Assembly: GCF_016907755.1 (NCBI RefSeq)
Contig: NZ_JAFBCN010000001.1
Location: 62,001 to 126,000, forward strand
Reading direction: 5' to 3'
Source: Cellulosimicrobium cellulans
Lineage (GTDB): Bacteria > Actinomycetota > Actinomycetes > Actinomycetales > Cellulomonadaceae
Length of the DNA stretch: 64,000 nucleotides
The translations under genes were made by a program, and so were the position numbers. Position 1 is the first letter of the stretch, and the number at the start of each line of letters is the position of its first letter. Of the stretch, positions 43,190 through 61,976 are shown one piece after another. A model generated the notes under the pieces. That model searched no databases, was not told where the DNA came from, and saw only the letters and a program-made list of their open reading frames with translations.

Positions 43190-43296
43190 CTCGACCACCT
43201 CCGAGGACAACGCTAGCAAAATGACAGCATCGTCCGCCAGGGTCGACCCCACCCTGGGCGCAATGAAGTTGCGGCGGGTTGAGAGAATGGACCGTC

Positions 43297-46200: not shown

Positions 46201-48060
46201 ATCGACACGTCGCAGTTCCCCGAGACCTGGCCGCAGGGCGAGCTCACCCTCCCGCTCACCTACCAGTTCCAGCCCGGGACCGACGCCGACGGCGTCACCG
46301 TGCACGTCCCGATCTCCGTCCTCAACCGCGTCGTGCCCGACGGGTTCGACTGGATGGTGCCGGGCCTGCTCGACGAGCTCGCCACGGCGACGATCCGCTC
46401 GCTGCCCAAGCCGGTCCGCGTCCAGCTCGTGCCGGCGCCGGACGTCGCGCGCGACGTCGTCGCCTGGCTCCGCGCGCACACCCCCGCCTGGGAGGACATG
46501 GCCCGCGCGGGCGACATGGCCGAGCCGTTCCACGTGGCGTTCACGCGCGGCGTCCGGGCGCTGCGCGACGTCGTCATCCCTGACGACGCGTGGGGCCCCG
46601 AGCAGGAGGCGCGCCTCCCCGCGCACCTGCGCATGACGTTCCGCGTCGAGGACCCGCGCGACCGCGGCGGGTCCGTCGTCCTCGACGAGTCGAAGGACCT
46701 GCTCGCCCTCCAGCGCCGACTCGCCGCCCAGAACCAGGCGGCGGTCCGCGCCGCGGTGAAGGGCGCGGTGGGCGCGGCGTTGCGCGAGGCGGGATCTCGG
46801 GCGGGGACGGGCGCCGCGGGTGCGGGGCCGGGTCCGGCGGCGGAGGGGGCGTCGGTGCTCGGGCTACCATCCGCGCCGCTCGTTCCTCACGGCGCTCCCG
46901 CCAGTCCCACCACGCCCTTCGCATCCGACGCCCCCTCCCCCGCCTCCGCGTCCGGCTCACCTTCCCGCAACGGACAAGCCGCAGTGCGCGACGGCGCGGG
47001 TCCGGCCGTGGCGACCGGCTCGCCCGGGCGAGCCGACGTGCGGGCCGATCTGGCGTCGTCGGACCTCGACGAGGCGACGACGCGACGGGCAGCCGCCGCG
47101 GACGCGACCACGGCCGCCCTGGTGACCGAACGCGCGAACCTGACCACCTGGCCCGACGACCTGAGCGACGGCCGACTCCCGGCGACGGTGTCGACAGACC
47201 TCGGGAGTGGGGTCGTGGTGCGGGGGTACCCCGCGGTCGTCGAGGAGCAGGACGCGAAGGGGAAGCCGGTCGTCGCGCTGCGCGTGCTCGCCGACGCGAA
47301 CGCGCAGGCGCGCGAGCACGCGCGCGGCGTGCGGCGTCTGCTGCTGTCCGAGACGGCGCTGCAGACCGGGCGCATCACCAGTCGGTGGAACGGGACGCAG
47401 TCGCTCACGATGGCGGCCAGCCCGTACCGGAACACGGACGCGCTGGTCGCGGACCTGCAGCTCGCCGCGGTGATCGCGCTGACGAGCGGCGGTAGCGGGC
47501 AGTACGGAGCGCAGCCGGACGCGACGACGATCCGCGACGCGGAGGCCTACGCGGCCGCGAGGGCGTTCGTGCGGGCGCACCTGGAGGAGCAGGTGCACCA
47601 GGTGGTCGGGCACGTCGTGGCGGCGCTGACGGCGTCGCGCAACCTCGACGCGGAGATCCGCGCGTCGAACAGCCTCGCGCTGCTCAACACGCTCACCGAC
47701 CTGCGCGACCAGGCCGCGGGCCTGATCCACGACGGGTTCGTCTCCCAGACCCCGCCCCGCCGGCTGCCGCACCTCACGCGCTACCTGCGCGCGGCGTCGT
47801 ACCGGCTGGAGAAGGCGCAGTCGAACCCGAACCGCGACGCCGAGCTCGCGTGGCGCGTGCACGACGTCGAGGAGGCGTACCAGCGCGCCCGCGCCGCCTA
47901 CGCACAGGGCCCGGCCGACCCGGTCCGCGCGGCGGACCTGGCCGAGGTCCGGTGGCTGGTCGAGGAGCTGCGCGTGTCGCTGTTCGCGCAGCAGCTCGGC
48001 ACGGACGGCCCGGTGAGCGAGAAGCGCATCCGCAAGCTCCTCACGCCCGACGGCTGGTGA
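43297..48060 (+). CDS. hrpA: ATP-dependent RNA helicase HrpA
   Basis: 1587-residue DEAH-box helicase. A basic Arg/Gly-rich N-terminus (residues 1-75) precedes Walker A GETGSGKTT (about 118-126), DEAH in IIVDEAHERS (about 215), TSATID, and motif VI NQRSGRSGRV. The HA2/OB regions and the long C-terminal DUF3418 part typical of HrpA follow. It is about 280 residues longer than enterobacterial HrpA. The extra length lies partly in an Ala/Thr/Ser insert near residues 685-705 and an Ala/Gly/Pro/Ser linker near 1165-1260. GAGAAT lies 8 nt before GTG 43297 (probably leaderless). Role: RNA remodelling, in known bacteria including rescue of collided ribosomes. Confidence 0.93.
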   Translation: MSTEPAANQPDARPAQQGGAAEGTPREGRRRRGNRRGRGRGDRPTSGTSTTTEPTRRGRGERTPSGPRQVSRAQLERAAQARESVTVPPITYPEQLPVSARRADIAAAIRDHQVVIVAGETGSGKTTQLPKIALELGRGRKGQVGHTQPRRIAARTVAERIAEELGTELGGVVGYQVRFTDTSSEDTLVKVMTDGILLAQIQRDPELLAYDTIIVDEAHERSLNIDFLLGYLARLLPRRPDLKLIITSATIDSERFAQHFSPAHLAQLGGAPDYVVDALPDAAPVVEVSGRTYPVEIRYRPLSPDVDPGASTGTGTKAKGRAGAEEKDLVTGIVDACDELMREGHGDILVFLSGEREIHDAADALTGHLKDRVTDPKHPQRVEILPLYARLSSAEQHRVFQAHSSRRIVLATNVAETSLTVPGIHYVVDPGTARISRYSKATKVQRLPIEPVSQASANQRSGRSGRVADGIAVRLYSEDDFLSRPEFTEPEILRTSLASVLLQMISVGVVETPDEVARFPFVEPPDTRAVRDGVQLLTELGALATSDGVARLTEVGRVLAQLPMDPRLARMIWEGSRLGVAREVAIIAAVMSIQDPRERPAEVRAQADQAHARFTDPHSDFLTYLNVWEYVREQQHELSSSAFRRLCKAEYLNFLRIREWQDVVAQLREMSKPLGIDMSYKPRARGAAGSPSTSGAAAADPTTAPDATPDSQAYKRAWDGDTIHKALLSGLLSQIGMQDTGDVKASSVAHLKGEARAKALRRAQKQARNEYTGARGARFAIFPGSPLSKKPPAWIMAGELVETSRLWARDVARIQPEWAEDLAGDLARRTYSEPHWSTKRGAAIATEKVLLYGVPIVADRKVLYAKVDPEAAREMFVRHALVQGEWTTHHRFFHDNRKLLAEAEELEARSRQRGLVVDDDVLFDFYDERVPDDVVSAAHFDRWWKTAQRRDPDLLTFTLEQLVPDAEQIDTSQFPETWPQGELTLPLTYQFQPGTDADGVTVHVPISVLNRVVPDGFDWMVPGLLDELATATIRSLPKPVRVQLVPAPDVARDVVAWLRAHTPAWEDMARAGDMAEPFHVAFTRGVRALRDVVIPDDAWGPEQEARLPAHLRMTFRVEDPRDRGGSVVLDESKDLLALQRRLAAQNQAAVRAAVKGAVGAALREAGSRAGTGAAGAGPGPAAEGASVLGLPSAPLVPHGAPASPTTPFASDAPSPASASGSPSRNGQAAVRDGAGPAVATGSPGRADVRADLASSDLDEATTRRAAAADATTAALVTERANLTTWPDDLSDGRLPATVSTDLGSGVVVRGYPAVVEEQDAKGKPVVALRVLADANAQAREHARGVRRLLLSETALQTGRITSRWNGTQSLTMAASPYRNTDALVADLQLAAVIALTSGGSGQYGAQPDATTIRDAEAYAAARAFVRAHLEEQVHQVVGHVVAALTASRNLDAEIRASNSLALLNTLTDLRDQAAGLIHDGFVSQTPPRRLPHLTRYLRAASYRLEKAQSNPNRDAELAWRVHDVEEAYQRARAAYAQGPADPVRAADLAEVRWLVEELRVSLFAQQLGTDGPVSEKRIRKLLTPDGW

Positions 48061-48103: not shown

Positions 48104-49039
48104 TCAGCAGGTCTCGAACACGTACGAGTACGGCTCGCCCGTCTCCTCGACGGGGTCGAACCCGCTCACGTCCGTGTCGGGCGTGACGAGGTAGAGGTCG
48201 CGCAGCACGGTGAGCGGTGCGCGGTCGGGCAGGGCGCACGCGTCGGCGAACGTCAGCCCCTCGCCCGCGAGCGGGCCGGGGTACTCGACCTGCAGCACGT
48301 GGTCGCCGTACACGTCGGTGTACGCGGCGCACTCGTCCCAGACGGCGCACTCCTCGGTCACGGCGAAGTCGAAGCCGAGGTCGTCGTGCGCGACCTGCGT
48401 GATCTCCGCGGCGTTCTTCTGCGCGATGGCGAGCCCGGCGTCGTGCGCGAGGTCGACGTACGCCGTGGCGAGCGCGTGCGCGCCGGCCTCGTCGATCTCG
48501 GCGAACCGGGTCCAGGTGTCGAGGTTGTCGATCTCGACCGCGTCGAACCCGTCGTCCGCGCAGCCGGTGACCACCGGACCGAGGACGTCGAGGATCCCGT
48601 CGCGCTGCGCGGCGGTCGAGGGGTCGAGCACGAACTCGTCCGGCCAGTCGGGGTCGATCACGAGCTCCCCACCTGCGTCGTGCAGCAGCAGGTCCTCGTG
48701 GGCGAGCCACAGGTCGGCGTCGTCGGGCTGCGTCTGGAAGCCGTTCACGTAGCAGACGTTGTACGCACCGGAGAGCGGCGTCGCCGTCGCGTCGCGCACC
48801 ACGACGTCGGGGGTCACCGGACCGGAACCGGCGTCGACCTCGTCGTACGCGCCGCCGAGCTGGTAGTCGAGGACCCCGCTCGTGGGCGGCAGCTCGACCA
48901 CCGCCGCCGTCGTCGCGTCGGTCGTGGTCGTGCGTGCCGTGTCCGGGACGGGGCTCGTGCCGCCGACGGCGGGGCCGCCCGCGCACGCGGTCAGCACCAG
49001 CGCCGAGCCGAGTGCCAGGCCGGTCGTCGTTCGTCTCAT
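48104..49039 (-). CDS. GH114-family lipoprotein (endo-alpha-1,4-polygalactosaminidase-like)
   Basis: 311 residues with a lipoprotein signal (lipobox LTAC, Cys19) and a Thr-rich tether (about 28-48), so surface-anchored. The TIM-barrel GH114 domain (about 55-311) shows GVLDYQLGGAY, NVCYVNGFQT, LVIDPDWPDEFVLDPS, GFDAVEIDNLDTW, AIAQKNAAEI and DFAVTEECAVWDECAAY, then QVEYPGP. The Asp/Glu in EIDNLD and TEEC match the expected acidic catalytic pair. The family cleaves alpha-1,4-linked galactosamine polymers (fungal galactosaminogalactan, Pel-like polymers). A good ribosome-binding site (GAGAGGAA) precedes ATG 49039. It lies downstream of the GH4 and aldolase genes, same strand. Confidence 0.82.
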   Translation of the reverse strand: MRRTTTGLALGSALVLTACAGGPAVGGTSPVPDTARTTTTDATTAAVVELPPTSGVLDYQLGGAYDEVDAGSGPVTPDVVVRDATATPLSGAYNVCYVNGFQTQPDDADLWLAHEDLLLHDAGGELVIDPDWPDEFVLDPSTAAQRDGILDVLGPVVTGCADDGFDAVEIDNLDTWTRFAEIDEAGAHALATAYVDLAHDAGLAIAQKNAAEITQVAHDDLGFDFAVTEECAVWDECAAYTDVYGDHVLQVEYPGPLAGEGLTFADACALPDRAPLTVLRDLYLVTPDTDVSGFDPVEETGEPYSYVFETC

Positions 49040-49121
49040 GTGCTCGTTCCTCTCGTCGTGACGCGCTGCCCGCGCGCCATGGTGGGGGTGCCGATCAGGA
49101 GATGCAGGACGGTCCGAGGTG

Positions 49122-49970
49122 TCAGGCGAACACCTGCGTGCAGAGCCGGTCGACGGCGTCGCGCACGGCCCCCCGCGCCGGGGCGAGGTACTTGCGGGGG
49201 TCGGTGACGGCGTCGTGCGCGTCGAGGAAGTCTCGCACCTGACGCGTGTAGCCGACGTTGAGCGCGGTCCCGACGTTGATCTTGCGGATCCCGCGCGCGA
49301 CGGCGTCGCGCAGCATCGGGGCAGGGACACCGGACGACCCGTGCAGCACGAGCGGGACGGGGACCTCGGCGGCGATCCGCTCGACGAGGTCGAGGTCGAG
49401 GTCCGCGGTCGCGCTCGTCATCGCGTGCGAGCTGCCGACGGCGACGGCGAGCCCGTCGACGCCGGTCGCCGCGACGAACGACACGGCCTCGTGGGGGTCG
49501 GTGCGCACGCCGGGTGCGTGCGCACCGTCCTTGCCGCCGATCTCGCCGAGCTCGGCCTCGACCCACAGCGTGGTGTCGTGCGCGGACCGGGTGAGGTCGC
49601 GGGTCGTGGCGACGTTGTCCGCGTAGTCGAGGTGGGCAGCGTCGACCATGATCGACGTGATCCCGAGTCGCCACGCCTGGTCGACGACCTGACGCGCGAG
49701 GTCGACGTCCTGGACGTGGTCGAGGTGCAGCGAGACGGGGACGCGTGCCGCGACGGCGATCTCGCGACAGGCCGCGACCAGGGCCGTCATGCGGCCCTCG
49801 TGGTAGCGGACGGCGTTCTCGCTGATCTGCAGGATGCCGGGAGCCCCGGCGTCCTCGAGGCCGGCGACGATGCCCTCGGCGTGCTCGAGCGTGATGACGT
49901 TGAACGCGAGCACGGCGCCGCCGTCGCGCGCCGCCGCAGCGACGAGGTTCCCCGTCGCGGCCAGGGTCAC
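49122..49970 (-). CDS. Class II ketose-bisphosphate aldolase (tagatose/fructose-1,6-bisphosphate type)
   Basis: 282-residue zinc aldolase of the GatY/KbaY/FbaA fold. Motifs: PVSLHLDHVQDVD (zinc-ligand His, general region 80-92), WVEAELGEIGG, TDPHEAVSFVAATGVDGLAVAVGSSHA (substrate-loop and ligand His), VLHGSSGVP and RKINVGTAL. The SLHLDH/ELGEIGG/TGVDGLA pattern is nearest to tagatose-bisphosphate aldolases. Expected products are dihydroxyacetone phosphate and glyceraldehyde 3-phosphate. GTG 49970 overlaps the GH4 stop by 4 nt, so translation is coupled. Confidence 0.87.
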   Translation of the reverse strand: MTLAATGNLVAAAARDGGAVLAFNVITLEHAEGIVAGLEDAGAPGILQISENAVRYHEGRMTALVAACREIAVAARVPVSLHLDHVQDVDLARQVVDQAWRLGITSIMVDAAHLDYADNVATTRDLTRSAHDTTLWVEAELGEIGGKDGAHAPGVRTDPHEAVSFVAATGVDGLAVAVGSSHAMTSATADLDLDLVERIAAEVPVPLVLHGSSGVPAPMLRDAVARGIRKINVGTALNVGYTRQVRDFLDAHDAVTDPRKYLAPARGAVRDAVDRLCTQVFA

Positions 49971-51283
49971 AGGGCACCTGCCGGGACGACGGCGCGGAGC
50001 GGCTCGGGGAGCAGGTCGCCGTGCGCCGTGACGAGCTCGTCGCACAGGGCCCAGATCTGCTCGGGGGTGAGGGTCGAGGACGCGTTCGGGTCCATGAGGA
50101 CGGCCTGGCGCACGAGCCGAGGGTCGCCGGTGCGCGCCGCCTCGACGGTGAGCGCGCCGACGGAGACGTACGGCTGGTTGAGCGCCGCGCACTGGGCCGG
50201 GAGCGAGCCCATCGGCACGGGACGCAGGCCGTCGCCGTCGACCGCCGCCGGGACCTCGACGACCGCGCCCTGGGGCAGGTTGTCGATCAGCCCGTGGTTG
50301 GGGACGTTGACGTGCACCTCGCGCGGCGTCCCGGTGACGAGCGAGTGGATGATCTGGGGCGCGTACTCGCTCGCGCCGTCCTCGAGCGCGAGGTCCTCGC
50401 CGGCGGCGAGCGCACGCCGCGCCGCCTCGAACTCCGCGACGTTCTCCCGGCTGATGCCGACGTACTCGAGCGGCTGCAGGCGGTAGCGCTCGATCTGCTC
50501 GTCGGAGCGGAGGAACCACGGCAGGTACTCGGAGGAGTGCTCGCTCGTCTCCGTCGGGTAGTAGCCGAGGCGACGGAAGATCTCGACCCGGACGCGACGC
50601 TCGAGCCCGGGGTCGCGGCGGATCGTCTCGCGCAGCCGGGGGTACAGCGACTCGCCCTGGTGCTCCCACTCGAGCAGCCACGCCTGGTGGTTGACGCCCG
50701 CGGCCCGGTACCGCGTCTCCTCCACCGGGACGCCCACGAGCTCCGCGAGGTCGTGCGCCGTCCAGTAGACGGAGTGGCAGAGCCCGGCGACCTGGAGGTC
50801 GGGAGCGACGGTGGAGACCCACCACACGTTCATCGCCATCGGGTTCGTGTAGTTGAGCAGCCACGCCTCGGGGCACAGCTCGCGCATGTCGGTCGCGATG
50901 CCCTCCAGCACCGGGAACGTGCGCAGCGCGCGGAACACGCCACCGACGCCGGTCGTGTCGCCGATGGTCTGGCGCAGTCCGTGGCGCGCGGGGATCTCGA
51001 GGTCCTTCAGCGTCGCGTCGATGCCGCCGACCTGGATCATGTTGACGACGAAGTCGACCCCGTCGAGGGCCCGGCGACGGTCGGCGTACGCCTCGACGGT
51101 GGCCGACGCCCCGAGCTGGCGGCTCACCTGACGCGCGGTGCCCTCGGCGACGCGGAGCCGCTCGGGGTCGATGTCGTGCAGCACGAGGCGGGCGTCGGCG
51201 AGCTCCGGGTAGCGCAGGATGTCGGCGACGAGCTGGCGGGTGAAGACGACGCTCCCGGCGCCGACGAACGCGATGCTGACCAT
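49967..51283 (-). CDS. GH4 family alpha-galactosidase/6-phospho-glycosidase-like enzyme
   Basis: 438-residue NAD+- and Mn2+-dependent glycosidase. Rossmann motif IAFVGAGSVVFTRQLVADIL (about 4-23), NYTNPMAM (about 145-152), metal-binding Cys-His in GLCHSVYWTA (about 168-177) and GVNHQAWLLEW (about 198-208). CHSV is the MelA-type (unphosphorylated alpha-galactoside) signature rather than the CN-P form of phospho-glucosidases. GH4 uses oxidation at C3 and elimination, so C2-amino sugars are conceivable substrates. ATG 51283 has GAGGAT 7 nt upstream (leaderless). It is divergent from the DeoR gene across 144 nt. Confidence 0.86.
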   Translation of the reverse strand: MVSIAFVGAGSVVFTRQLVADILRYPELADARLVLHDIDPERLRVAEGTARQVSRQLGASATVEAYADRRRALDGVDFVVNMIQVGGIDATLKDLEIPARHGLRQTIGDTTGVGGVFRALRTFPVLEGIATDMRELCPEAWLLNYTNPMAMNVWWVSTVAPDLQVAGLCHSVYWTAHDLAELVGVPVEETRYRAAGVNHQAWLLEWEHQGESLYPRLRETIRRDPGLERRVRVEIFRRLGYYPTETSEHSSEYLPWFLRSDEQIERYRLQPLEYVGISRENVAEFEAARRALAAGEDLALEDGASEYAPQIIHSLVTGTPREVHVNVPNHGLIDNLPQGAVVEVPAAVDGDGLRPVPMGSLPAQCAALNQPYVSVGALTVEAARTGDPRLVRQAVLMDPNASSTLTPEQIWALCDELVTAHGDLLPEPLRAVVPAGAL

Positions 51284-51327
51284 GTCGACGATCCTCGGCG
51301 CCGTCGAGCGCACTGTGCAAGAATACG

Positions 51328-51343
51328 ATCAGATTTCGCTGAT
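51328..51343. promoter_or_regulatory. Inverted repeat in the GH4/DeoR intergenic region
   Basis: ATCAG-ATTTCG-CTGAT, a perfect 5-bp inverted repeat, next to the operator-like motif at 51347. It may be part of the same control region. Confidence 0.35.
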
Positions 51344-51346
51344 AAC

Positions 51347-51364
51347 ACTCACTTTGAATGAGCG
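51347..51364. promoter_or_regulatory. Operator-like motif, copy 1 (GH4/DeoR side)
   Basis: ACTCACTTTGAATGAGCG matches ACTCACTCTGGATGATCG at 58535-58552 at 15 of 18 positions. This copy lies between the divergent GH4 and DeoR genes. It is likely the binding site of the locus DeoR-type repressor. Confidence 0.6.
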
Positions 51365-51427
51365 ATTTGCCTCGTCCGGGCGCCGAGGGCCTCGGGCGTC
51401 CGCCCCACAACCGCCGGAAGGAAGCGC

Positions 51428-52285
51428 ATGTCCGTCGCACCCGACGCCGCGCCCCGCGCGATCTCCCACAAGCGCAGCGACCGCATGATGCGGGCGCTGA
51501 CGTACGTCAACGAGCACGGCACGGCACGCCTCACGGAGCTGGTCCACGAGCTCGGCGTGTCCTCGGCCACGATGCGGCGCGACCTCGCGGACATGGAGGA
51601 GCAGGGCCTCGTGCTCCGCACGCACGGCGGGGTGCGCGCCCTCGACCCCACGACGGAGGTCCCGGTGCTCCTGCGCGACTCCCGGTTCCGCGAGGCGAAG
51701 CTGCGCATCGCCCAGCACGCCGCCGGGCTGCTCCCGCCGGGGCGCTACTCCGTCGCGATCAGCGGCGGCACGACGGCGGCCGCCGTCGCGCGCGCCCTCG
51801 CGACGCGACCCGACCTCGCGATCGCCACGAACGCCCTGACGACGGCGACCGAGCTCGCCGCGCGCAGCAACCTGCAGGTCATCATGACCGGCGGGTTCGT
51901 CCGCTCGAGCTCGCTGGAGGCCGTCGGCGTGCTCGCCGAGCACACGTTCAACGCGATCAACGTCGGCACGGCGTTCCTGGGCACGGACGGCATCAGCGTG
52001 CGCGGCGGCGCGACGACGCACGACGAGACCGAGGCGCGCACCAACCACGCGATGGTCGCGCACGCCGAGCGCGTCGTCGTGGTCGCGGACGGGTCGAAGG
52101 TGGGGCGCGTGACGCTCGCCAAGATGGCGGACCTCGAGGAGATCGACGTGCTCGTGACGGACTCGTCCGCCGACCCGGAGGCCCTCGACGCAATCGCGGC
52201 GGCCGGTGTCGACGTCCAGGTCGTGCCCGACGACGGTCCGGTCACGGCCGTGCAGCCGGCCGAGGGGCCGACCACGCCGCTCTGA
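51428..52285 (+). CDS. DeoR-family transcriptional repressor
   Basis: 285 residues. N-terminal DeoR HTH at about 15-72 (RMMRALTYVNEHGTARLTEL; GVSSATMRRDLADMEEQGLV; RTHGGVRAL). C-terminal sugar-phosphate-sensing DeoRC domain at about 90-250 (YSVAISGGTTAAAVARALAT; LEAVGVLAEHTFNAINVGTA; VVVADGSKVGRVTLAKM). This family usually senses sugar phosphates such as tagatose-6-P or its bisphosphate. ATG 51428 has GGAAGGAAG upstream. It converges on the PfkB gene pair and diverges from GH4; the shared motif is its likely operator. Confidence 0.92.
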   Translation: MSVAPDAAPRAISHKRSDRMMRALTYVNEHGTARLTELVHELGVSSATMRRDLADMEEQGLVLRTHGGVRALDPTTEVPVLLRDSRFREAKLRIAQHAAGLLPPGRYSVAISGGTTAAAVARALATRPDLAIATNALTTATELAARSNLQVIMTGGFVRSSSLEAVGVLAEHTFNAINVGTAFLGTDGISVRGGATTHDETEARTNHAMVAHAERVVVVADGSKVGRVTLAKMADLEEIDVLVTDSSADPEALDAIAAAGVDVQVVPDDGPVTAVQPAEGPTTPL

Positions 52286-52298
52286 CCCCGCAGCGGGT

Positions 52299-53234
52299 CT
52301 ACGGCACCGGGAGCGCCACGGCCTCGACCTCGACCTCGCCGACGAGACGGCGGGCCAGGTCCGCGTCCAGGACGGCCGCACCGGGGACCTGGGCGTTGGC
52401 CGTGCCCGCGGCGGCACCGAGCGCCACCGCCGCGGCGAGGGAGGCCCCCGTGTCGAGCGCGACGAGCATCCCGCCCAGGAACGAGTCGCCGCTCCCCACC
52501 GGGAAGCGGCCGACGTGGCCCCCGAGCCGCACGCGCAGGACGCTCGTGCCGTCGCTCGCCCACGCCCCCTCCGCGCCGTCCGTGACGACCACGAGGCCGC
52601 CCGACCGGTCGCGGATCCCGGTGACGAGCGCTGGCCCCGGGGTGTCCTCGGGGACGCCCAGCAGCTCTGCCGCCTCGACCCGGTTCACCTTGACCAGGTC
52701 GGGCCCCTCCCCCACGGCACCCGCGAGCGCCGGACCGTGGCTGTCCACGGCGACGCGGGCACCCGCCGCCCGCAGCCGACCGACGACGGCGCCGACCACG
52801 CTCGGCGCGATGGTGCCGGGGAGGCCGCCGGACAGCAGCCACCACCCGCCGTGGTGCGCGGCGAGGTCGAGCGCGAGCCCGACGGCACGGTCGAGCGTGT
52901 CCGGACCCACCGGGACGGCACGCTCGTAGATCTCGGTGAGCGCACCGGTCTCTGCGGCCAGGACCGAGACGCACGTGCGCGTCGGGTGCTCTCCCGGCAC
53001 GACGCGCAGGTCTACGCCGTCGGCTCTCGCCCCCGCCGCGACGTCCTCGCCCGATCCCCCGGCGAGGACCGCGACGGCGGTCGTGCGGGCGCCGAGCGAC
53101 GCCGCGGCGCGGACCGCGTTGAGCGCCTTCCCCCCACCGACGCGACGGACCTCGCGCGGGCGCTGGATCCCCTCGAGCGCGTCGACGACGTACGTGACGT
53201 CGAGCGACGGGCTGAGGGCGAGCGCGGAGATCAT
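52299..53234 (-). CDS. PfkB-family kinase, LacC/FruK-like
   Basis: 311-residue ribokinase-fold kinase. The N-terminal pattern ALSPSLDVTYVVDAL and RRVGGGKALNAVRAAASLG (about 32-50) is that of 1-phosphofructokinase/tagatose-6-phosphate kinase. The C-terminal PfkB signature has the catalytic Asp in FPVGSGDSFLGGM (about 258-270). Expected substrate: a ketose phosphate such as tagatose-6-P, yielding the bisphosphate for the aldolase encoded nearby. ATG 53234 overlaps the preceding PfkB stop by 4 nt (ATGA). Last gene of the long minus-strand operon from 58408. Confidence 0.88.
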   Translation of the reverse strand: MISALALSPSLDVTYVVDALEGIQRPREVRRVGGGKALNAVRAAASLGARTTAVAVLAGGSGEDVAAGARADGVDLRVVPGEHPTRTCVSVLAAETGALTEIYERAVPVGPDTLDRAVGLALDLAAHHGGWWLLSGGLPGTIAPSVVGAVVGRLRAAGARVAVDSHGPALAGAVGEGPDLVKVNRVEAAELLGVPEDTPGPALVTGIRDRSGGLVVVTDGAEGAWASDGTSVLRVRLGGHVGRFPVGSGDSFLGGMLVALDTGASLAAAVALGAAAGTANAQVPGAAVLDADLARRLVGEVEVEAVALPVP

Positions 53235-54238
53235 GCGAGCGCGGCACGCAGCGCGGCCAGCGTGGCCTGCGCCCCGGTGCCCCCCGGGCCGCGCGTCGAC
53301 AACGAGCCGGCGCAGGCCGCCCAGCGCACGCGTTCGGTCTCGTCCTCGATCCCGTGCGCGAGGGCCGCGAGGTAGCCGGCGTCGAAGCTGTCTCCGGCGC
53401 CGGTCGTGTCGACCACGTCCACGGCGAGCCCCGGGGCACGCACGACGGCTCCGGCCGGTCCCACGGACCACCCGCCGCGCGCACCGTCCTTGACCACGAC
53501 GCGGGGGCCGCGCGCGGCGACCGCCCGGGCGAGCGCGGCGTCGGGATCGCCGGTGTGCGGCGCGTCCCGCACGCCCGCGCCGAACGCCGCCGCGACGGCG
53601 CGCAGCTCGTTGCGGTTCGGCAGCAGCACGTCCACGTGGGGCAGCAGGTCCGCGAGCCCGGTCCAGCGCTCGGCGGGATCCCAGTTCGTGTCGAGGCTCG
53701 TCGTCCACCCCCGCGCGCGTGCGGACGCGAGGACCGCGGGCAGGTCCGCGGCGAGACGCGGCTGGAGGAAGAACGACGCGACGTGCACGACGCCGGGCGG
53801 CCCGTGCCAGCCGTCGAGCACGGCGAGCGCGTGGGAGCCGGTGAGGGTCGGGATCGTGCCCGGGACCGTGAGGATCGCCCGGTCGTCGGGCGTGGAGAGG
53901 ATGACCGAGAGCCCTGTCGGCTCGTCGTGGGCGACGTCGACGGCGGAGACGTCCACCCCGGCGGCGCGCAGCGCGTCGAGCGTGAAGGTGCCGAACGTGT
54001 CCGCGCCGACGCGCGCGACGAGCGTCGTCGGCACCCCGAGGCGCGCGACGCCGGCCGCCGCGATGCTGGCCGAGCCGCCGAGGACGAGGTCGCCGGAGTC
54101 GGCGAGCTGCTCGGCCTGGCCGAAGCGCGGGACGACGTCGCCGCGCAGCACGAGGTCGACGTTCGCGTCGCCGACCACGACGACGGGTCGTGAAGCGGTC
54201 CGGTCGGGTCCGTCGGGCAGGGTGTGGGGCGTGGTCAT
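53231..54238 (-). CDS. PfkB-family sugar kinase (second, ribokinase-like)
   Basis: 335 residues. Ribokinase-type N-terminus: VVVVGDANVDLVLRGDVVP (about 19-37), LVLGGSASIAAAGVARLG (about 51-68). Signature 2 with the catalytic Asp: DVVDTTGAGDSFDAGYLAAL (about 275-294). It differs strongly from the downstream PfkB protein, so the two are not recent duplicates. In context it may phosphorylate an imported free sugar (galactosamine, or a fructosamine by analogy with FrlD). ATG 54238 overlaps the permease stop by 4 nt. Confidence 0.88.
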   Translation of the reverse strand: MTTPHTLPDGPDRTASRPVVVVGDANVDLVLRGDVVPRFGQAEQLADSGDLVLGGSASIAAAGVARLGVPTTLVARVGADTFGTFTLDALRAAGVDVSAVDVAHDEPTGLSVILSTPDDRAILTVPGTIPTLTGSHALAVLDGWHGPPGVVHVASFFLQPRLAADLPAVLASARARGWTTSLDTNWDPAERWTGLADLLPHVDVLLPNRNELRAVAAAFGAGVRDAPHTGDPDAALARAVAARGPRVVVKDGARGGWSVGPAGAVVRAPGLAVDVVDTTGAGDSFDAGYLAALAHGIEDETERVRWAACAGSLSTRGPGGTGAQATLAALRAALA

Positions 54239-55176
54239 CCCTTGACTCCGGTGAAGGTCATGGTGGCGATGAACTGGCGCTGGGCGAACAGGAAGAACAG
54301 CACCAGCGGCAGGGTCGCGACGACGTTGCTCGCCATGAGCAGCGACCAGTCGGTCCGGCGCGCGCCCTGGAAGTTCGTGATCCCGAGCTGGAGCGTGAAC
54401 GACGACGGGTCGTTGATCGCGATGAGCGGCCAGACGAGGTCGTTCCACGAGCCGAGCAGCGTGAAGATCGCGAGCGTCGCGAGCGCGGGCCGCGCGAGCG
54501 GGAGGATGATCCGCCAGAACGTCGCGAGCCGGGAGCACCCGTCGAGGACGGCCGCCTCCTCGAGCTCGGGCGGGAGCGACAGGAAGAACTGGCGCATGAG
54601 GAAGATCCCGAACGCCGACGCGAGCCACGGGACCATCGCGGCGGCGAGCGTGTCGATGATGCCGATGCGCGCGAAGAGGACGTACGTCGGGACCATGAGG
54701 AGCTGGGTCGGGATCATGATCGTCGCCATGATCGCGAGGAACCCGAACGTGCGGCCCGGGAACTTGAGGCGCGCGAACCCGTACCCGGCGAGCGAGCACA
54801 GCACGATGTGCGACGCGACGGCGACGACCGAGACGAGGACGGTGTTCGTCGTCCAGCGCAGCACGTCGGTCTCGGTGAAGAGCTTGACGTAGCCGTCGAG
54901 CGTGAGCTGCGAGGGCCAGAACCGCGGAGGGAACCGGTTGATCTCCGCCTCGGGCGTGAGCGACGTGAGGAACATCTGCACGAACGGCGTCGCGAACAGC
55001 GCGGCGACGGGGACGAGCAGCAGGTGCCACAGCCAGGCGCGTCGCCGCCGGCGCCGCGGTGCGGGGGTGGCGGTGGTGGTGGCGGGGAGCGGGCCGTCCG
55101 GGGCGCCGGGCGGCACCGCCTGCGGTCCGCCGGGCGCCGCGGCGTAGGCGGCAGGTCCGGGAACGGTCGTCGACAT
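54235..55176 (-). CDS. Carbohydrate ABC transporter permease 2 (CUT1, MalG-like)
   Basis: 313 residues with six hydrophobic helices after a 45-residue Pro/Ala/Arg-rich cytoplasmic tail. The EAA loop reads PPELEEAAVLDGCSRLATFW, then RIILPLARPALATL (about 200-233), the standard ATPase contact of MalG-type permeases. No ATPase gene is in the operon; actinobacterial CUT1 importers commonly share a general ATPase (MsiK type). ATG 55176 shares one base with the upstream permease stop (TGATG). Confidence 0.92.
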   Translation of the reverse strand: MSTTVPGPAAYAAAPGGPQAVPPGAPDGPLPATTTATPAPRRRRRRAWLWHLLLVPVAALFATPFVQMFLTSLTPEAEINRFPPRFWPSQLTLDGYVKLFTETDVLRWTTNTVLVSVVAVASHIVLCSLAGYGFARLKFPGRTFGFLAIMATIMIPTQLLMVPTYVLFARIGIIDTLAAAMVPWLASAFGIFLMRQFFLSLPPELEEAAVLDGCSRLATFWRIILPLARPALATLAIFTLLGSWNDLVWPLIAINDPSSFTLQLGITNFQGARRTDWSLLMASNVVATLPLVLFFLFAQRQFIATMTFTGVKG

Positions 55177-56096
55177 CAGAGTCCACCAACCTTCGTGCGG
55201 CGGGAGTAGAGCGTCACGGCGATGGTGATGAGCAGGGTCACGGCGAACAGCCCGTACGCCACGGCCGAGGCGTACCCGAACTCGAGCTCCTTGAACGCCG
55301 CCTTCCACAGGTAGTACACGATCGTCTCGGTCGACCCGAGCGGGCCGCCGCGCGTCGTGGTGTAGACGAGGTCGAAGAGCTGGATCGCCTGGATCGTCTG
55401 CCAGATGGCGACGAACACCGTGACCGGGGCGAGCTGGGGGAACGTCACGTGCCAGAACGACTGCCACCGGTTCGCGCCGTCCACACGGGCGGCCTCCGCG
55501 AGCTCGACCGGGATGTCCTGGAGCGCGGCGAGGTAGATGACGGTCGTGAACGCCGCCTGCCCCCACAACGACATGATCGTGATGACGACCATCGCCTGCG
55601 ACGGGTCCTCGAGCCAGCCCTGCTGCGGGAGGCCGAGGACGCGCAGCACGTTGTTCACGAACCCGAACTGCGGGTTGAACAGGTAGGTCGTGAGGATGCC
55701 GGTGGCCGCCGCGGAGACCACGAACGGCAGGAACACGAGGGTGCGGTAGACCCCGACCAGGACGAGCCGGCGGTTGAGCGCGACCGCGAGACCGAGCCCG
55801 AGGAAGAGCGACGCCGGGACGAACAGCGCGGTGTACAGGAGCGTGTGCCCCACCGCGGCGCCCAGCTCGGCGTCGGTCAGCATGCGCCGGTAGTTGTCCG
55901 CGCCCACCGGTTCCGGGGTGGAGAAGCCGTTCCAGTCCTGCAGCGACAGCAGGAACGCCCAGACCGCGGGGAAGATCGACAGACCGACGACGAGGAGCGT
56001 CGCCGGGGTGACGAAGCCCCACCCGGCGAGCGCCTCCCCCGTCCGGCGGCGCCGCGGGGGCCGCCGGACGGGGGTGGGCGCGATCGTCGTCGTCAC
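55176..56096 (-). CDS. Carbohydrate ABC transporter permease 1 (CUT1, MalF-like)
   Basis: 306 residues, six predicted helices, short Arg/Pro-rich cytoplasmic N-terminus. EAA loop: IPVELAEAARVDGANRWQSF, then WHVTFPQLAPVTVF (about 190-223). AFLLSLQDWNGFS and the LPFVVSAAATGILTTYLFNP segment are typical of the UgpA/MalF group. GTG 56096 overlaps the binding-protein stop by 4 nt (GTGA). Confidence 0.92.
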   Translation of the reverse strand: MTTTIAPTPVRRPPRRRRTGEALAGWGFVTPATLLVVGLSIFPAVWAFLLSLQDWNGFSTPEPVGADNYRRMLTDAELGAAVGHTLLYTALFVPASLFLGLGLAVALNRRLVLVGVYRTLVFLPFVVSAAATGILTTYLFNPQFGFVNNVLRVLGLPQQGWLEDPSQAMVVITIMSLWGQAAFTTVIYLAALQDIPVELAEAARVDGANRWQSFWHVTFPQLAPVTVFVAIWQTIQAIQLFDLVYTTTRGGPLGSTETIVYYLWKAAFKELEFGYASAVAYGLFAVTLLITIAVTLYSRRTKVGGL

Positions 56097-57436
56097 TGGT
56101 CCGCCAGCGCTTCGTCCGACCGGTCGGCGGCCCGCTCGAGCGCCTCGCGCGGTTCTCCCTTGCCCTGGAGGACCTCCGAGACCGCCGTGCCGACCGCCTC
56201 GGAGAGGTTCACGTACCCCGGCACGGTCGGGCGGGGGATCGTCGCGTTCTCGCTGTTCTGCGCCATGACGTCCAGGCCGGGCATCGCCGCGACCTGTGCC
56301 TGGAACTCCGGCGAGTCGATCTCGCTCTCGCGCAGCGGGAGGTTGCCGTAGACGACGTTCCAGCGCACGTCCTGCTCGGGGTCGGTCAGCCACCTCGTGA
56401 ACTCGTACGACCAGTGCTCACGGTTCGCGTCCTGGTGGTCGAAGAGGACCCAGAGGTCGGCGCCGGAGATCGTCGTGTGCTCGCCGCCGTAGGCCGGCAG
56501 GGGGACGACGCCGTACTGCGTGCCCGCGACCTGGAGGTCGTACAGCGTCCACGGCCCGGACGTGACCATGCCGATCTGGTCGCTCGCGAAGATCTGCGTG
56601 AACTTGGTGTCGGTCTGGTCGAGGTAGACCGACCCGTCCTCGACGGCCATGTCGCGCAGGAACGTCAGCGCGTCCACGCCGGCGTCGGAGTCGAACCTCG
56701 CGGTCGTGCCGGACTCGTCGAGGATCTCCCCGCCCCGCTGCCACAGGTGCGGCCAGAACTGCCACGTCGTCTCCTCGGAGCCGGAGACCCCGTAGGCGTA
56801 GCCGTACGTGCTCGTCGCGGGGTCCGTGAGCTCCTTCGCCGCGGCGCGGAAGTCGTCCCACGTCCAGTCCTCGGTCGGGTAGTCCACGCCGGCGGCGTCG
56901 AACACCGTCTTGTTGTACAGGAGGGAGAGGTTGTCGACGACGGCCGGGAAGCCGATCGTCGTCTCGCCGTCCGGCTGGGCGGTGGCGCGAGCGGCGCCGG
57001 AGAACTCGTCCCAGCCGACGTCGGGGTCGCTCACCTGGTCGGTGATGTCGAGCGTGCGCTCCGACTCGGCGAGCTCGCTCGCCCAGGAGCCGAACGCGTA
57101 GGAGATGTCCGGGTAGGTCCCGCCGGCGAACGAGGACGACAGCTTCTGCAGCAGGTCCTCCGTCGACGGCGCGCCCGACGACACCTCGATCGTCACGTTG
57201 GGGTGGAGCTCCTCGAACTCCTCGGCGAGGCCCGTGAGGATCGTCTGGGCCTGGTCGGCCTGGCCGGTCCACCACGTGAGCGTGACGTCGGCCTCGGGGT
57301 CGAGGGTCGTGGCGCCCTGCGTCCCGGACGAGCACGCGGCGAGCAGCAGCGCGCCGGAGACGACGGCCGCTCCGGCGGCTCCCCGGGCCACGGTGAGAGG
57401 ACGGTCGGGACGGCGGCGGGTGGGATGACGGAACAT
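56093..57436 (-). CDS. Sugar ABC transporter substrate-binding lipoprotein
   Basis: 447-residue family 1 extracellular binding protein. Signal peptide with lipobox LAAC at about residues 32-35. Core pattern VTLTWWTGQADQAQTILTGL (about 50-69), EEFEELHPNVTIEVSSG, GTYPDISYAFGSWASELAES and the C-terminal FTRWLTDPEQDVRWNVVYGN. It binds a sugar or oligosaccharide outside the cell for the two permeases encoded next. ATG 57436. It is about 84 nt downstream of the SIS gene, same strand. Confidence 0.92.
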   Translation of the reverse strand: MFRHPTRRRPDRPLTVARGAAGAAVVSGALLLAACSSGTQGATTLDPEADVTLTWWTGQADQAQTILTGLAEEFEELHPNVTIEVSSGAPSTEDLLQKLSSSFAGGTYPDISYAFGSWASELAESERTLDITDQVSDPDVGWDEFSGAARATAQPDGETTIGFPAVVDNLSLLYNKTVFDAAGVDYPTEDWTWDDFRAAAKELTDPATSTYGYAYGVSGSEETTWQFWPHLWQRGGEILDESGTTARFDSDAGVDALTFLRDMAVEDGSVYLDQTDTKFTQIFASDQIGMVTSGPWTLYDLQVAGTQYGVVPLPAYGGEHTTISGADLWVLFDHQDANREHWSYEFTRWLTDPEQDVRWNVVYGNLPLRESEIDSPEFQAQVAAMPGLDVMAQNSENATIPRPTVPGYVNLSEAVGTAVSEVLQGKGEPREALERAADRSDEALADQ

Positions 57437-57520
57437 TGTCGGCCTTGTCTCTTGGGCGGTCTCTTCGTCGAGTGTCCGGGTACTGCGTCCCCGTCGGTGA
57501 CGGGCTGTCGCGGGTCGTCC

Positions 57521-58408
57521 TCAGCCGAGGACGACGGAGCGGGTGAGGTGGCGCGGCGCGTCCGCGTCGAGGCCGCGGTCGGTGGCGAGGGCGACGGCGA
57601 GGCGCTGGCACTGCACGAGCTGGACGAGCGGGTCCCCCTCGAGGTGCACGACGGTCGCGCCGGTACGCCGCACGTCGTCGGCGAGCGCCGGGTCGTCCTC
57701 GCCCAGCAGGATCACGAGCGTCGCGTCGGTCGCGACGGCGACCGGCCCGTGCCGGTAGTCGAGCGCCGGGTACGACTCGGACCACGCCTGCGCCGCCTCG
57801 CGGATCTTCAGCGCCGCCTCCTGCGCGAGGCCGTAGGCCCACGAGCGGCCGAGGAACACGAAGTGCTCGAACGCGCCCGGTTCGACGGGCAGCGGCGCCG
57901 CGAGCGCCTGCTCGGCCTGCTCGACGAGGTCGGAGAGGTCCTCGCCGAACGCCTGGCGGGCGACGGCGAGCACGGTGGTCGGGAACCGCGTCTGGACGAC
58001 CGACTCCTCGTCTGCGAGGTCGAGCACGAGGACGTCGTCCGCCGCGAGGGCGACGGGCGTGCCCGCGACCCCGACGACCGCGGCGGTGCGCGTTCCCGCG
58101 GGGACGGCCGCGAGCGCCTCGAGGCACTCGCTCGTGGTCCCGGAGCGGCTGATGACGACCACGCGGTCGTAGGGACGCGTCGGGTGCCACTCCGACGCGT
58201 ACGCGGCGTCGGTCTCGCCGAGGCCCGCGTCCTCACGGAGGACCGCGATCGCCTCGGCGACGAACGCGCTCGTCCCGCACCCGAGCACGAGGACGCGCTC
58301 GCCGGGCGCGCCGAGCACGGAGCCGGTGGCGGGTCCGCCCGCGAGGGCCTTGGCCCACACGTCGGGCTGGCTGTGGATCTCTCGCTCGGTGACGGCGCTC
58401 GGGCTCAC
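57521..58408 (-). CDS. SIS-domain sugar-phosphate isomerase/deaminase (AgaS/FrlB/GlmS-like)
   Basis: 295 residues with two SIS domains. First at about 40-150 (VLVLGCGTSAFVAEAIAVLR; DRVVVISRSGTTSECLEAL), second at about 185-285 (HFVFLGRSWAYGLAQEAALK; IREAAQAW, then YPALDYRHGPVAV). The Glu/His pattern ESYPALDYRHGP is that of GlmS-isomerase-like enzymes acting on amino sugars: AgaS (galactosamine-6-P deaminase/isomerase) and FrlB (fructosamine-6-P deglycase). The start residues EREIHSQPDVW fit this group. GTG 58408 is the start. First gene of the operon, about 130-145 nt from the shared operator motif. Confidence 0.85.
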   Translation of the reverse strand: MSPSAVTEREIHSQPDVWAKALAGGPATGSVLGAPGERVLVLGCGTSAFVAEAIAVLREDAGLGETDAAYASEWHPTRPYDRVVVISRSGTTSECLEALAAVPAGTRTAAVVGVAGTPVALAADDVLVLDLADEESVVQTRFPTTVLAVARQAFGEDLSDLVEQAEQALAAPLPVEPGAFEHFVFLGRSWAYGLAQEAALKIREAAQAWSESYPALDYRHGPVAVATDATLVILLGEDDPALADDVRRTGATVVHLEGDPLVQLVQCQRLAVALATDRGLDADAPRHLTRSVVLG

Positions 58409-58534
58409 GTGCTTGTCCTGTCGTCGGCGGGGTCGTGACCCCGGGTCCAGCGGTGGTGGGTGCCGCGCGGCGCGGACCCGATGCCCAAGATCCTGCTCAT
58501 CGTCTGCGCGATAGTCACGCAGAGTGGCACATTC

Positions 58535-58552
58535 ACTCACTCTGGATGATCG
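58535..58552. promoter_or_regulatory. Operator-like motif, copy 2 (SIS/amidohydrolase side)
   Basis: ACTCACTCTGGATGATCG matches the motif at 51347. It sits between the divergent SIS operon and the amidohydrolase gene, over the expected -35 of the latter (-10 candidate TAACAT at 58560-58565). CAGAGTG (58520-58526) and CACTCTG (58538-58544) add an inverted repeat around it. Confidence 0.6.
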
Positions 58553-58591
58553 GTTCGCGTAACATCCGTGAAATCTGCGCGCGCGGGGCAG

Positions 58592-59698
58592 ATGCTCGGG
58601 GACGTGACCGATCCTCTCCACCACGCCACCCCGCCCCCGGTGCCGCCCGCACCCGACCTGCGGCTCGCCGACTGGGAGCCGCGTGCCCGCGTGCGGCTCC
58701 CCCGGACCGACGTCACCCGGGCCGCGGTGCCCGCCGTCGACGTCCACAACCACCTGGGCCGCTGGCTCACCGCCGACTGGTGCGCGCCGGACGTCCCCGC
58801 GCTGCTCGACCTGCTCGACCGCACGAACGTGCGCACGGTCGTCAACCTCGACGGCCTGTGGGGCGACGAGCTCGAGGCCAACCTCGACCGGTACGACCGC
58901 GCGCACCCGGGCCGGTTCCTCACCTTCTGCCAGGTCGACTGGAGGGCGCTCGCCCACGCGGGCGGCGAGCGCGAGGTGCAGCGGCAGCTCCGCGACGCCG
59001 CGGCGCGCGGGGCGCGCGGCCTCAAGGTGTGGAAGGACCTCGGCCTGACCGTCACCGGCCCCGACGGCGCGCTCGTCGCGCCCGACGACCCTCGCGTCGT
59101 CGAGACGCTCGCGCTCGCGGGCGAGCTCGGGCTGCCCGTCCTGGTCCACGTCGCCGACCCGAAGGCGTTCTTCGACCCGCTGGACCGGTACAACGAGCGC
59201 GTTGACGAGCTCGCCGCGCAGCCGTCGTGGTCGTTCGCCGACCGGTCCCGGTTCCCGTCGTTCGAGCACCTGCTCGACGCGTTCGAACGCCTGCTCGTCG
59301 CGACGCCGGGGACCACCTACGTCGGCGCGCACGTCGGCTGCGTCGCCGAGGACCTCGACCACGTCTCCCGGCTCCTGCGGGCCGCGCCGAACCTCGTCGT
59401 CGACATCGCGGGCCGGCTGGGCGAGCTCGGGCGTCAGCCGCGGCGCTTCCGCCGGCTCGTCGAGGACTTCCCCGACCGGGTCCTGTTCGGCACCGACGCG
59501 TTCCCGTTGTCCCACGAGCAGCTCGAGACGCACTTCCGGTTCCTCGAGACGGCCGACGAGCACTTCGCCTACTCCCCCGGCGACCCCGTGCCGCCGCAGG
59601 GTCGGTGGGCCATCTCGGGCGCGGACCTCCCGGCGCACCTCCTGCCGGCGCTCTACGCGGGGAACGCGTGCCGGGTGCTCGGGCTCGACGAGGCCTGA
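58592..59698 (+). CDS. Amidohydrolase (ACMSD-like amidohydrolase-2 family)
   Basis: About 368 residues. TIM-barrel metal-dependent hydrolase: N-terminal VDVHNHLGRW (HxH metal motif, about 50-59), RGLKVWKDLGLTV (Lys of the central strand), LPVLVHVADPKAFFDPLDRY (His), TYVGAHVGC (His), and FGTDAFPLSHEQ (Asp, about 310-321). The DVHNH/FGTDAFP pattern is that of the amidohydrolase-2 (decarboxylase/lactonase-like) branch, not NagA-type deacetylases. TAACAT -10 at 58560 puts the transcript start near 58572, so ATG 58592 or GTG 58604 is the start. It diverges from the SIS operon and shares its operator motif. Its reaction in the locus is unknown. Confidence 0.82.
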   Translation: MLGDVTDPLHHATPPPVPPAPDLRLADWEPRARVRLPRTDVTRAAVPAVDVHNHLGRWLTADWCAPDVPALLDLLDRTNVRTVVNLDGLWGDELEANLDRYDRAHPGRFLTFCQVDWRALAHAGGEREVQRQLRDAAARGARGLKVWKDLGLTVTGPDGALVAPDDPRVVETLALAGELGLPVLVHVADPKAFFDPLDRYNERVDELAAQPSWSFADRSRFPSFEHLLDAFERLLVATPGTTYVGAHVGCVAEDLDHVSRLLRAAPNLVVDIAGRLGELGRQPRRFRRLVEDFPDRVLFGTDAFPLSHEQLETHFRFLETADEHFAYSPGDPVPPQGRWAISGADLPAHLLPALYAGNACRVLGLDEA

Positions 59699-61874: not shown

Positions 61875-61882
61875 CCCCTCAC

Positions 61883-61961
61883 GCCGAGAACGGGGTTGCT
61901 GTCGTTCTCGGCGCCAGAACGCGAAGAACCTCGTGCTCGACGGCGAGCAACGTCGTGCTCG
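61883..61961. repeat. Family A repeat, degenerate copy 5
   Basis: It starts GCCGAGAACGGGGTTGCTGT and continues CGTTCTCGGC. The far part has AAGAACCTCGTGCTCGACGG and then GAGCAACGTCGTGCTCGC. Two partial right arms suggest a composite of two elements. It is 8 nt after the ketoacyl synthase stop and upstream of the macro-domain gene. Confidence 0.65.
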
Positions 61962-61976
61962 CGTGAGGATGGGGGC

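Follow-up and report, generated by a model that had tools for sequence, protein, structure and literature searches.

The route from galactosamine-6-phosphate to trioses is already known from the aga/kba pathway of Escherichia coli, Shewanella, and streptococci, in which AgaS converts galactosamine-6-phosphate to tagatose-6-phosphate, LacC or AgaZ acts next, AgaY/GatY follows, and the DeoR-family protein AgaR is the regulator (PMC12118421, PMC4694137). The chemistry of glycoside hydrolase (GH) family GH114 is likewise known. GH114 acts on galactosamine polymer in the fungal galactosaminogalactan (GAG) cluster and in bacterial agd3-GH114 operons, the latter being putative exopolysaccharide synthesis loci (PMC7229062). 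Its catalytic residues are an Asp and a Glu, and no soluble bacterial GH114 was obtained in the galactosaminidase study concerned (PMC12054363). A co-occurrence study placed GH46, 55, 64, 75, 87, and 114 in a fungal-wall group, group K, whose table row names Actinobacteria (128, 26%) (PMC7922503). A search of one open-access library, in which most subscription papers are absent, turned up no bacterial gene set described for growth on galactosamine polymers. Here, we analyzed 64,000 nucleotides of Cellulosimicrobium cellulans DNA (the window; contig NZ_JAFBCN010000001.1, positions 62,001 to 126,000), in which a block of genes at 48104..59698 probably specifies the utilization of galactosamine from polymer to triose.

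Compared with aga/kba, the window locus shares the proposed chemistry from galactosamine-6-phosphate through tagatose-6-phosphate and tagatose-1,6-bisphosphate to trioses, together with a DeoR-family regulator, but import is by an ATP-binding cassette (ABC) system and not by a phosphotransferase system (PTS), a GlmD-like SIS protein takes the place of AgaS and a ribokinase-type kinase that of AgaK or the PTS, and GH4 and GH114 enzymes stand upstream. The fungal GAG cluster and the agd3-GH114 operons have been described as synthesis or modification loci, whereas the window cluster contains an importer and catabolic genes. With the galactosaminidases of families GH114, GH135, GH166, and GH191, it has the GH114 domain and catalytic motifs in common, here with a catabolic gene set beside them, and group K is a genome-level statistic without a pathway, whereas the locus is a gene set. 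The first-pass annotation had called the pathway undescribed; within the literature of one open-access library, this holds for the polymer-to-triose assembly and the enzyme families but not for the downstream chemistry, which is that of the known aga pathway (PMC12118421, PMC4694137). What looks new is the way that route and GH114 are combined with import genes, with a GH4 of a separate subfamily, and with a ribokinase-type kinase and an SIS protein outside the AgaS family.

Profile searches recovered all the genes that had been listed at first, with their domains: GH114, a class II aldolase, GH4, DeoR, two PfkB kinases, two BPD_transp_1 permeases, SBP_bac, and SIS. That inventory had overlooked an amidohydrolase-like gene on the plus strand (58592-59698), a conserved partner within the same interval that diverges from the SIS gene. 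One minus-strand unit runs from 58408 to 52299 in the order SIS, binding protein, permease, permease, ribokinase-type kinase (RbsK), and LacC-type kinase; the other runs from 51283 to 48104 in the order GH4, aldolase, and GH114, and the plus-strand DeoR gene (51428-52285) lies between them. Several adjacent genes of the block overlap by 1 to 4 bases, the pattern of co-transcribed genes. Reading enzymatic steps, substrate, and regulation from these genes, we infer that the membrane-anchored GH114 would cut an alpha-1,4-galactosamine-rich polymer outside the cell, either fungal GAG or a Pel-like biofilm polymer. The binding protein and the two permeases would import the oligomers, served by an ATPase encoded elsewhere, as no ATPase gene was recognized in the block. 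GH4 would then free single sugars inside the cell, and the amidohydrolase may strip N-acetyl groups. The ribokinase-type PfkB kinase would form galactosamine-6-phosphate, the SIS protein would deaminate it to tagatose-6-phosphate, the LacC-type kinase would produce tagatose-1,6-bisphosphate, and the aldolase would split the latter into two trioses, with DeoR repressing both units. The polymer's identity, the GH4 specificity, the kinase substrate, and the amidohydrolase reaction are all predictions.

The GH114 gene, the only one in the window genome, matches PF03537 with 144 bits (Pfam cutoff 27), and its PDB matches at E up to 0.001 are two chains of the fungal endo-galactosaminidase Ega3 (6oj1/6ojb), with which its motifs veiDNlD and teECavwdEC align. 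We take the catalytic Asp and Glu to lie at these positions of the alignment. PF03537 also matches in Thermotoga maritima and does not by itself separate GH114 from GH191, and cleavage of an alpha-1,4-galactosamine polymer is a putative activity. The GH4 enzyme has both Pfam domains of its family (E about 1e-55). Its identity to E. coli MelA is 41%, with GLCHSVYWT in place of the MelA sequence GLCHSVQGT. A sulfoquinovosidase (GH188) reading was rejected, since both GH4 domains were matched, no short-chain dehydrogenase/reductase (SDR) match was found, and GH188 is an SDR-superfamily protein (PMC10755693).

We searched GH4 and GH114 independently in 297 genomes of the order and 321 of the class. 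Full-length matches at at least 49% identity, taken as the GH4 subfamily, occurred in 16 order and 20 class genomes, 34 of them distinct. The motif GLCHS[VI][YHF]WT was present in 33 of the 34 subfamily loci (not L213); two second copies, in G505 and G694, had no locus of their own. GLCHSVQGT was found in 11 MelA-like loci and GLCHGTMHT in three others; the former as a MelA-defining motif is our own observation, drawn from E. coli MelA and these 11 loci. A GH114 gene lay within 10 kb of the subfamily gene in 5/16 order and 7/20 class genomes, i.e., 11 of the 34 distinct genomes, at distances of 1.0 to 8.4 kb, whereas copy number and genome size predict 0.08 pairs (order) and 0.03 pairs (class), or about 0.1. 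Among 18 further GH4 copies listed for the order sample, which lie outside the subfamily, no GH114 was present at 10 kb or less, even though 10 of the 17 genomes concerned contain a GH114. Four further order genomes with the subfamily have GH114 on the same contig at 23 to 59 kb, which is distant.

Some of these loci form compact units: GH114-BadF-AgaS, DeoR, GH4, binding protein, and permeases (L187, L188); GH114-RbsK-GH4-importer (L216); GH114-importer-RbsK-GH4 (L217, L218); and GH114-importer-GH4 (L219). No further glycosidases were seen in these six stretches with the query set used, which covered part of the remaining open reading frames (ORFs). If GH4 is indeed the only intracellular glycosidase beside GH114, the simplest view is that it would finish the oligomers made by GH114. 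GH4 genes were also seen in other settings. A second, different GH4 (L079:1769-3124; 38% identical to that of the window) directly precedes AgaS-type and BadF genes beside another importer, and in seven Actinomadura loci (L106, L113, L115, L116, L119, L120, L129), a short-chain dehydrogenase, GH4, and amidohydrolase stand with an importer, with no kinase or SIS gene nearby.

In another actinobacterial genome (L189; G209:C14:88000-107900), a subfamily GH4 (54%) and GH114 flank a PelF-like glycosyltransferase (DUF3492) and an Agd3-like protein, whose deacetylase match is weak but over the cutoff (31.8 against 27.6 bits), and an EAL/GGDEF protein and a PilZ protein lie nearby. L189 is a GAG/Pel-like exopolysaccharide locus and resembles an agd3-GH114 operon (PMC7229062). 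Such an arrangement would also fit a reading in which the cell turns over a Pel/GAG-like matrix of its own instead of feeding. For the window locus, however, this is very remote, as PelG has no match in the window genome and an importer and a full catabolic set are present; no glycosyltransferase was recognized among the block genes.

The amidohydrolase allowed the block to be followed further. A profile scan of genome contigs gave 173 relatives, of which the best 80 were used for locus counts. They occur in Cellulosimicrobium, Promicromonospora, Microbacterium, Leifsonia, Georgenia, Actinomyces, Arthrobacter, Actinomadura, and Actinoplanes, among others, and we take all those with a genus name to be actinobacteria; five Cellulosimicrobium loci have amidohydrolases 94 to 97% identical to that of the window. 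Within about 10 kb of the 80 genes were GH4 (67 loci), permeases (71 to 72), binding protein (68), SIS (56), DeoR (55), ribokinase-type kinase (51), aldolase (45), and LacC (39), and three loci (L083, L103, L108) lacked any other block gene. This grouping is far beyond chance, and the gene set that the first-pass annotation proposed to seek in related genomes is widespread. The amidohydrolase is absent from the stretch covered in L186-L188 and in five loci of a sister SIS clade (L045-L047, L050, L051). It has a TIM barrel and the HxH...H...H...D metal site of the amidohydrolase superfamily but no NCBIfam or Pfam match at E up to 0.001, the NagA/AgaA deacetylase profiles included. Fold searches returned decarboxylases and uncharacterized amidohydrolases side by side, and its assignment as an N-deacetylase is a guess. 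Three Actinomadura loci (L101, L104, L107) have GH36-like, importer, GH27-like (named by eye), GH20, and amidohydrolase genes in one row, with no GH4 or SIS. Separately, 9/80 loci (L094:1976-3712 and eight others) have beside the block a member of a family of secreted, lipoprotein-like proteins about 570 residues long, the one member scanned having no Pfam match. This family could be a further extracellular polymer-cutting enzyme; the AlphaFold model of the 578-residue L094 member is poor (pLDDT 57.6), and no link was found to the two DUF4832 proteins compared.

GH114 joins this block repeatedly, though not always. The 14 amidohydrolase loci with GH114 comprise five from Cellulosimicrobium, three from Microbacterium, one each from Frigoribacterium and Actinomyces, M. 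oleivorans, two from Actinomadura, and Cellulomonas massiliensis. Identity to the window GH114 is 62 to 78% in the three Microbacterium, Frigoribacterium, and Actinomyces loci, 39% in M. oleivorans, and 28% in both Actinomadura loci, and the Cellulomonas massiliensis protein is 33% identical to an Actinomadura one, lineages being judged here from identity alone. Loci of Cellulosimicrobium, Microbacterium, Frigoribacterium, and Actinomyces share the order GH4-(aldolase)-GH114 despite rearrangement of the remainder. In other genera of the window's family, the block is retained but, where the flank is covered, has no GH114 beside it. GH114 is present in 19 of the 22 amidohydrolase-bearing family genomes (one, G136, by a weak match) but in only 53 of the other 128; the corresponding figures for the order sample are 12/15 and 81/282 (p about 1e-4 in each sample, by statistics that ignore kinship). 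An early view from the family's own genera, that GH114 was a genus-specific accident, was overturned by the wider amidohydrolase and GH4 loci. The membership of GH114 assumed at first stands as a repeated linkage to GH4 and not as a constant one.

The SIS protein had initially been called AgaS-type. This was not borne out: it scores 39.2 bits against the AgaS profile TIGR02815 (cutoff 529.2) and is closer to GlmD/GlmS (88 to 97 bits), all far below the cutoffs, and no AgaS-family gene was found in the window genome (best match 24 bits). Its E204 and H220 are invariant in 11 aligned rows and align to the KLKE and KHGP of GlmS; we assume them to be catalytic-region residues of the GlmS/GlmD fold. 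The LacC-type kinase, with 1-PFK/LacC as its nearest names, reaches 64.5 bits against the LacC tagatose-6-phosphate kinase equivalog TIGR01231 (cutoff 409.55), and the nearest names of the ribokinase-type kinase are 5-dehydro-2-deoxygluconokinase, ribokinase, and tagatose kinase. As both kinases, the aldolase, and the regulator all stay below equivalog cutoffs, annotating the genes one by one cannot decide the substrate. The SIS gene occurs in 36/150 family genomes, 17 at at least 64% identity and 19 in the sister clade at 48 to 55%. Three aligned sister proteins are 52 to 53% identical to that of the window and have the same active-site residues. Loci of the sister clade (L045, L046, L047, L049, L050, L051) combine SIS, LacC, and aldolase with mostly a ROK-type kinase (Pfam-checked in L045) and in single cases adjoin GH31 with F5/8, GH36-like, or GH112 genes. 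They are perhaps galactosamine routes from host-type glycans.

The identity of the two steps before tagatose-6-phosphate is indicated by gene replacement. AgaS and BadF genes were recognized in both genome samples by similarity to those of the amidohydrolase loci, and class-sample GH4 neighborhoods were read by tblastn at E up to 1e-8, at which some permease matches are weak. Near the 20 class-sample GH4 genes, permeases were found 20 times, a kinase 16 times (12 ribokinase-type, 4 BadF-type, none with both), and SIS or AgaS 15 times (11 SIS, 4 AgaS, none with both), with AgaS accompanied by BadF in 4/4. The 14 of 16 order-sample loci that were read contained AgaS in 7, BadF in 6, and SIS in 4; BadF accompanied AgaS in 6/7, and neither RbsK with BadF nor SIS with AgaS occurred in any of the 14. 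Hence, an AgaS and BadF set replaces SIS and RbsK, unmixed, in 4/20 class and 6/14 order loci. Matched along the whole AgaS profile, AgaS-type proteins from four amidohydrolase loci scored 447 to 483 bits (cutoff 529); one GatZ/KbaZ exceeded its equivalog cutoff (631 against 569 bits), and a BadF kinase is nearest to the N-acetylglucosamine kinase NagK (79 bits, cutoff 370). Since AgaS and BadF fill the slots of SIS and the ribokinase-type kinase, the window pair most likely performs the same two steps. The same replacements, including GatZ, speak against a fructosamine (frl-type) operon. The SIS, binding protein, two permeases, and PfkB kinase do follow the frlBONMD order, but such an operon has no use for the second kinase, aldolase, GH4, or GH114, and this candidate was set aside as barely conceivable.

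Several observations weigh against a galactosamine-polymer route. The families nearest to the window GH4 are alpha-galactosidases, and it exceeds the cutoff of that NCBIfam subfamily (PRK15076, 572.9 bits against 486); we know of no GH4 enzymes that act on 2-amino sugars. In GH114 linkage, the subfamily stands apart from the remaining GH4 copies to a modest degree (Fisher p = 0.016; 0.053 among GH114-bearing genomes; the statistics ignore kinship). L216-L219 have no nearby SIS or AgaS, L219 also lacks a recognized kinase, and L082 alone among the 80 amidohydrolase loci has both kinase types. The SIS protein has Arg290, in all 11 rows, where GlmS (1moq), 2cb0, 2dec, and 1j5x have a C-terminal Lys that presumably has a role in GlmS/GlmD isomerases. 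GH114 occurs in 72/150 family genomes, 53 of which have no amidohydrolase; two same-genus genomes without amidohydrolase (L141, L142) have a GH114 74 to 78% identical to that of the window; and GH114 lies within 10 kb in only 14/80 amidohydrolase loci, flanks being cut in some.

Part of this would suit an alpha-galactoside locus, in which GH4 would be a normal alpha-galactosidase and the SIS protein would isomerize galactose-6-phosphate to tagatose-6-phosphate, a product that galactose also yields (PMC12118421). The GH4 signature unlike that of MelA, the replacement of SIS and RbsK by AgaS and BadF, and the repeated GH114 linkage make this quite improbable. A different glycan, such as cell-wall teichoic acid, a glycoprotein, or a glycolipid, could instead supply galactosamine or N-acetylgalactosamine to the route, GH114 being a local add-on in some lineages. 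It would account for the 66/80 amidohydrolase loci without GH114 in the stretch covered, for the GH31 with F5/8, GH36-like, or GH112 genes of single sister SIS loci, and for the GH20, GH27-like, GH36-like, or NagA/NagB genes of some amidohydrolase loci (NagA adjoins 5/80, with NagB in 4 of these, some with GH3 or GH20). We consider it unlikely, as GH114s of such differing identity to the window protein (62 to 78%, 39%, 28%) occur in one and the same block, and as GH114 and this GH4 also stand together in compact units. The idea of the first-pass annotation, a galactosamine route fed by GH114, remains the best account of the evidence (the GH114 linkage, the AgaS and BadF replacements, NagA and NagB beside a few loci, the shared operator-like sites, and L189). 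Three points are amended: the SIS protein lies outside the AgaS family, the amidohydrolase is added, and GH114 is not constant.

The aldolase belongs to the F_bP_aldolase family and scores 218 bits against the GatY/KbaY tagatose-bisphosphate aldolase model NF009374 (cutoff 383), and the closest PDB relatives of the binding protein (best 60 of 498) are sugar-binding proteins. An 18-base operator-like sequence is common to the two divergent intergenic gaps (Table 1), the pattern being derived from these two sites, so that its two exact matches hold by construction. Its core ATGAkCGrTT occurs upstream of 8/67 GH4 and 6/80 amidohydrolase genes, a minority of loci, whereas mononucleotide shuffles averaged 0.04 for each set. 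The shared sites suggest that a single regulator may control both units and the amidohydrolase. A promoter scan found none, and a terminator scan found 2 against 1.0 expected.

Table 1. Features of the window locus, in window coordinates
Feature	Position	Strand	Basis
GH114 lipoprotein, putative endo-alpha-1,4-galactosaminidase, lipobox-like VLTAC	48104..49039	-	PF03537; Asp/Glu motifs compared with Ega3
Class II aldolase, GatY/KbaY-like; predicted tagatose-1,6-bisphosphate cleavage	49122..49970	-	PF01116, 262 bits
GH4 enzyme, MelA-like with signature GLCHSVYWT; 4-base overlap with aldolase start	49967..51283	-	Both GH4 Pfam domains
Operator-like site, GH4/DeoR divergent gap, CTTTGAATGAGCGATTTG	51352..51369	+	Common to 58540-58557
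DeoR-family regulator, nearest NCBIfam model AgaR	51428..52285	+	NF040755, 182 bits, cutoff 260
PfkB kinase, LacC/1-PFK type; predicted tagatose-6-phosphate kinase	52299..53234	-	TIGR03168, 153 bits, cutoff 216
PfkB kinase, ribokinase type; predicted galactosamine 6-kinase	53231..54238	-	Pfam/NCBIfam profiles; replacement pattern with BadF
ABC sugar permease 2	54235..55176	-	PF00528
ABC sugar permease 1	55176..56096	-	PF00528
Sugar-binding lipoprotein of ABC importer	56093..57436	-	PF13416/PF01547
SIS protein, GlmD/GlmS-like; predicted galactosamine-6-phosphate deaminase/isomerase	57521..58408	-	Profiles and active-site alignment
Operator-like site, SIS/amidohydrolase divergent gap, CTCTGGATGATCGGTTCG	58540..58557	+	Motif match
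Amidohydrolase-superfamily TIM-barrel protein; start possibly 58568	58592..59698	+	Fold searches, conservation

The window has a G+C content of 69 to 77% in 2-kb steps, and reading frames were fixed through domain matches and codon-position G+C, long empty mirror frames being common in such G+C-rich DNA. On its low side, the block borders a long gene that was judged helicase-like by eye (43279-48060); a lipoprotein-like ORF and a ketoacyl-synthase gene border its high side. None of these flank genes was seen beside the block in loci outside the genus. The ketoacyl-synthase gene and the macro-domain gene that follows it (60666-62513, plus strand) have relatives in five other Cellulosimicrobium loci. 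Elsewhere in the window (12529-17193, minus strand), a 1,554-residue protein has GSDH, PKD, and xylose-isomerase-like stretches and a sub-cutoff CBM6 match.

A wider proposal, tentative and as a whole doubtful, gives new roles to four of the proteins. The GH4 subfamily with GLCHS[VI][YHF]WT would represent a novel type of NAD-dependent exo-alpha-galactosaminidase, and the ribokinase-type PfkB protein would stand for a new class of kinases that phosphorylate galactosamine at position 6. The GlmD-like SIS protein would be a second kind of galactosamine-6-phosphate deaminase, independent of AgaS, and the amidohydrolase with HNHLGRWL would be a novel N-deacetylase of oligosaccharides. All four would belong to a widespread actinobacterial pathway for the consumption of GAG/Pel-type polymers. 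Mould hyphae and biofilms both carry galactosamine polymers. If the polymer-to-triose reading is true, bacterial GH114 would gain a catabolic role, and the locus would offer testable candidates for missing or unusual activities, namely an intracellular exo-galactosaminidase, a galactosamine kinase, and a non-AgaS deaminase. GH4 enzymes with CHS[VI][YHF]WT would then be a marker for users of galactosamine polymers among actinobacteria.

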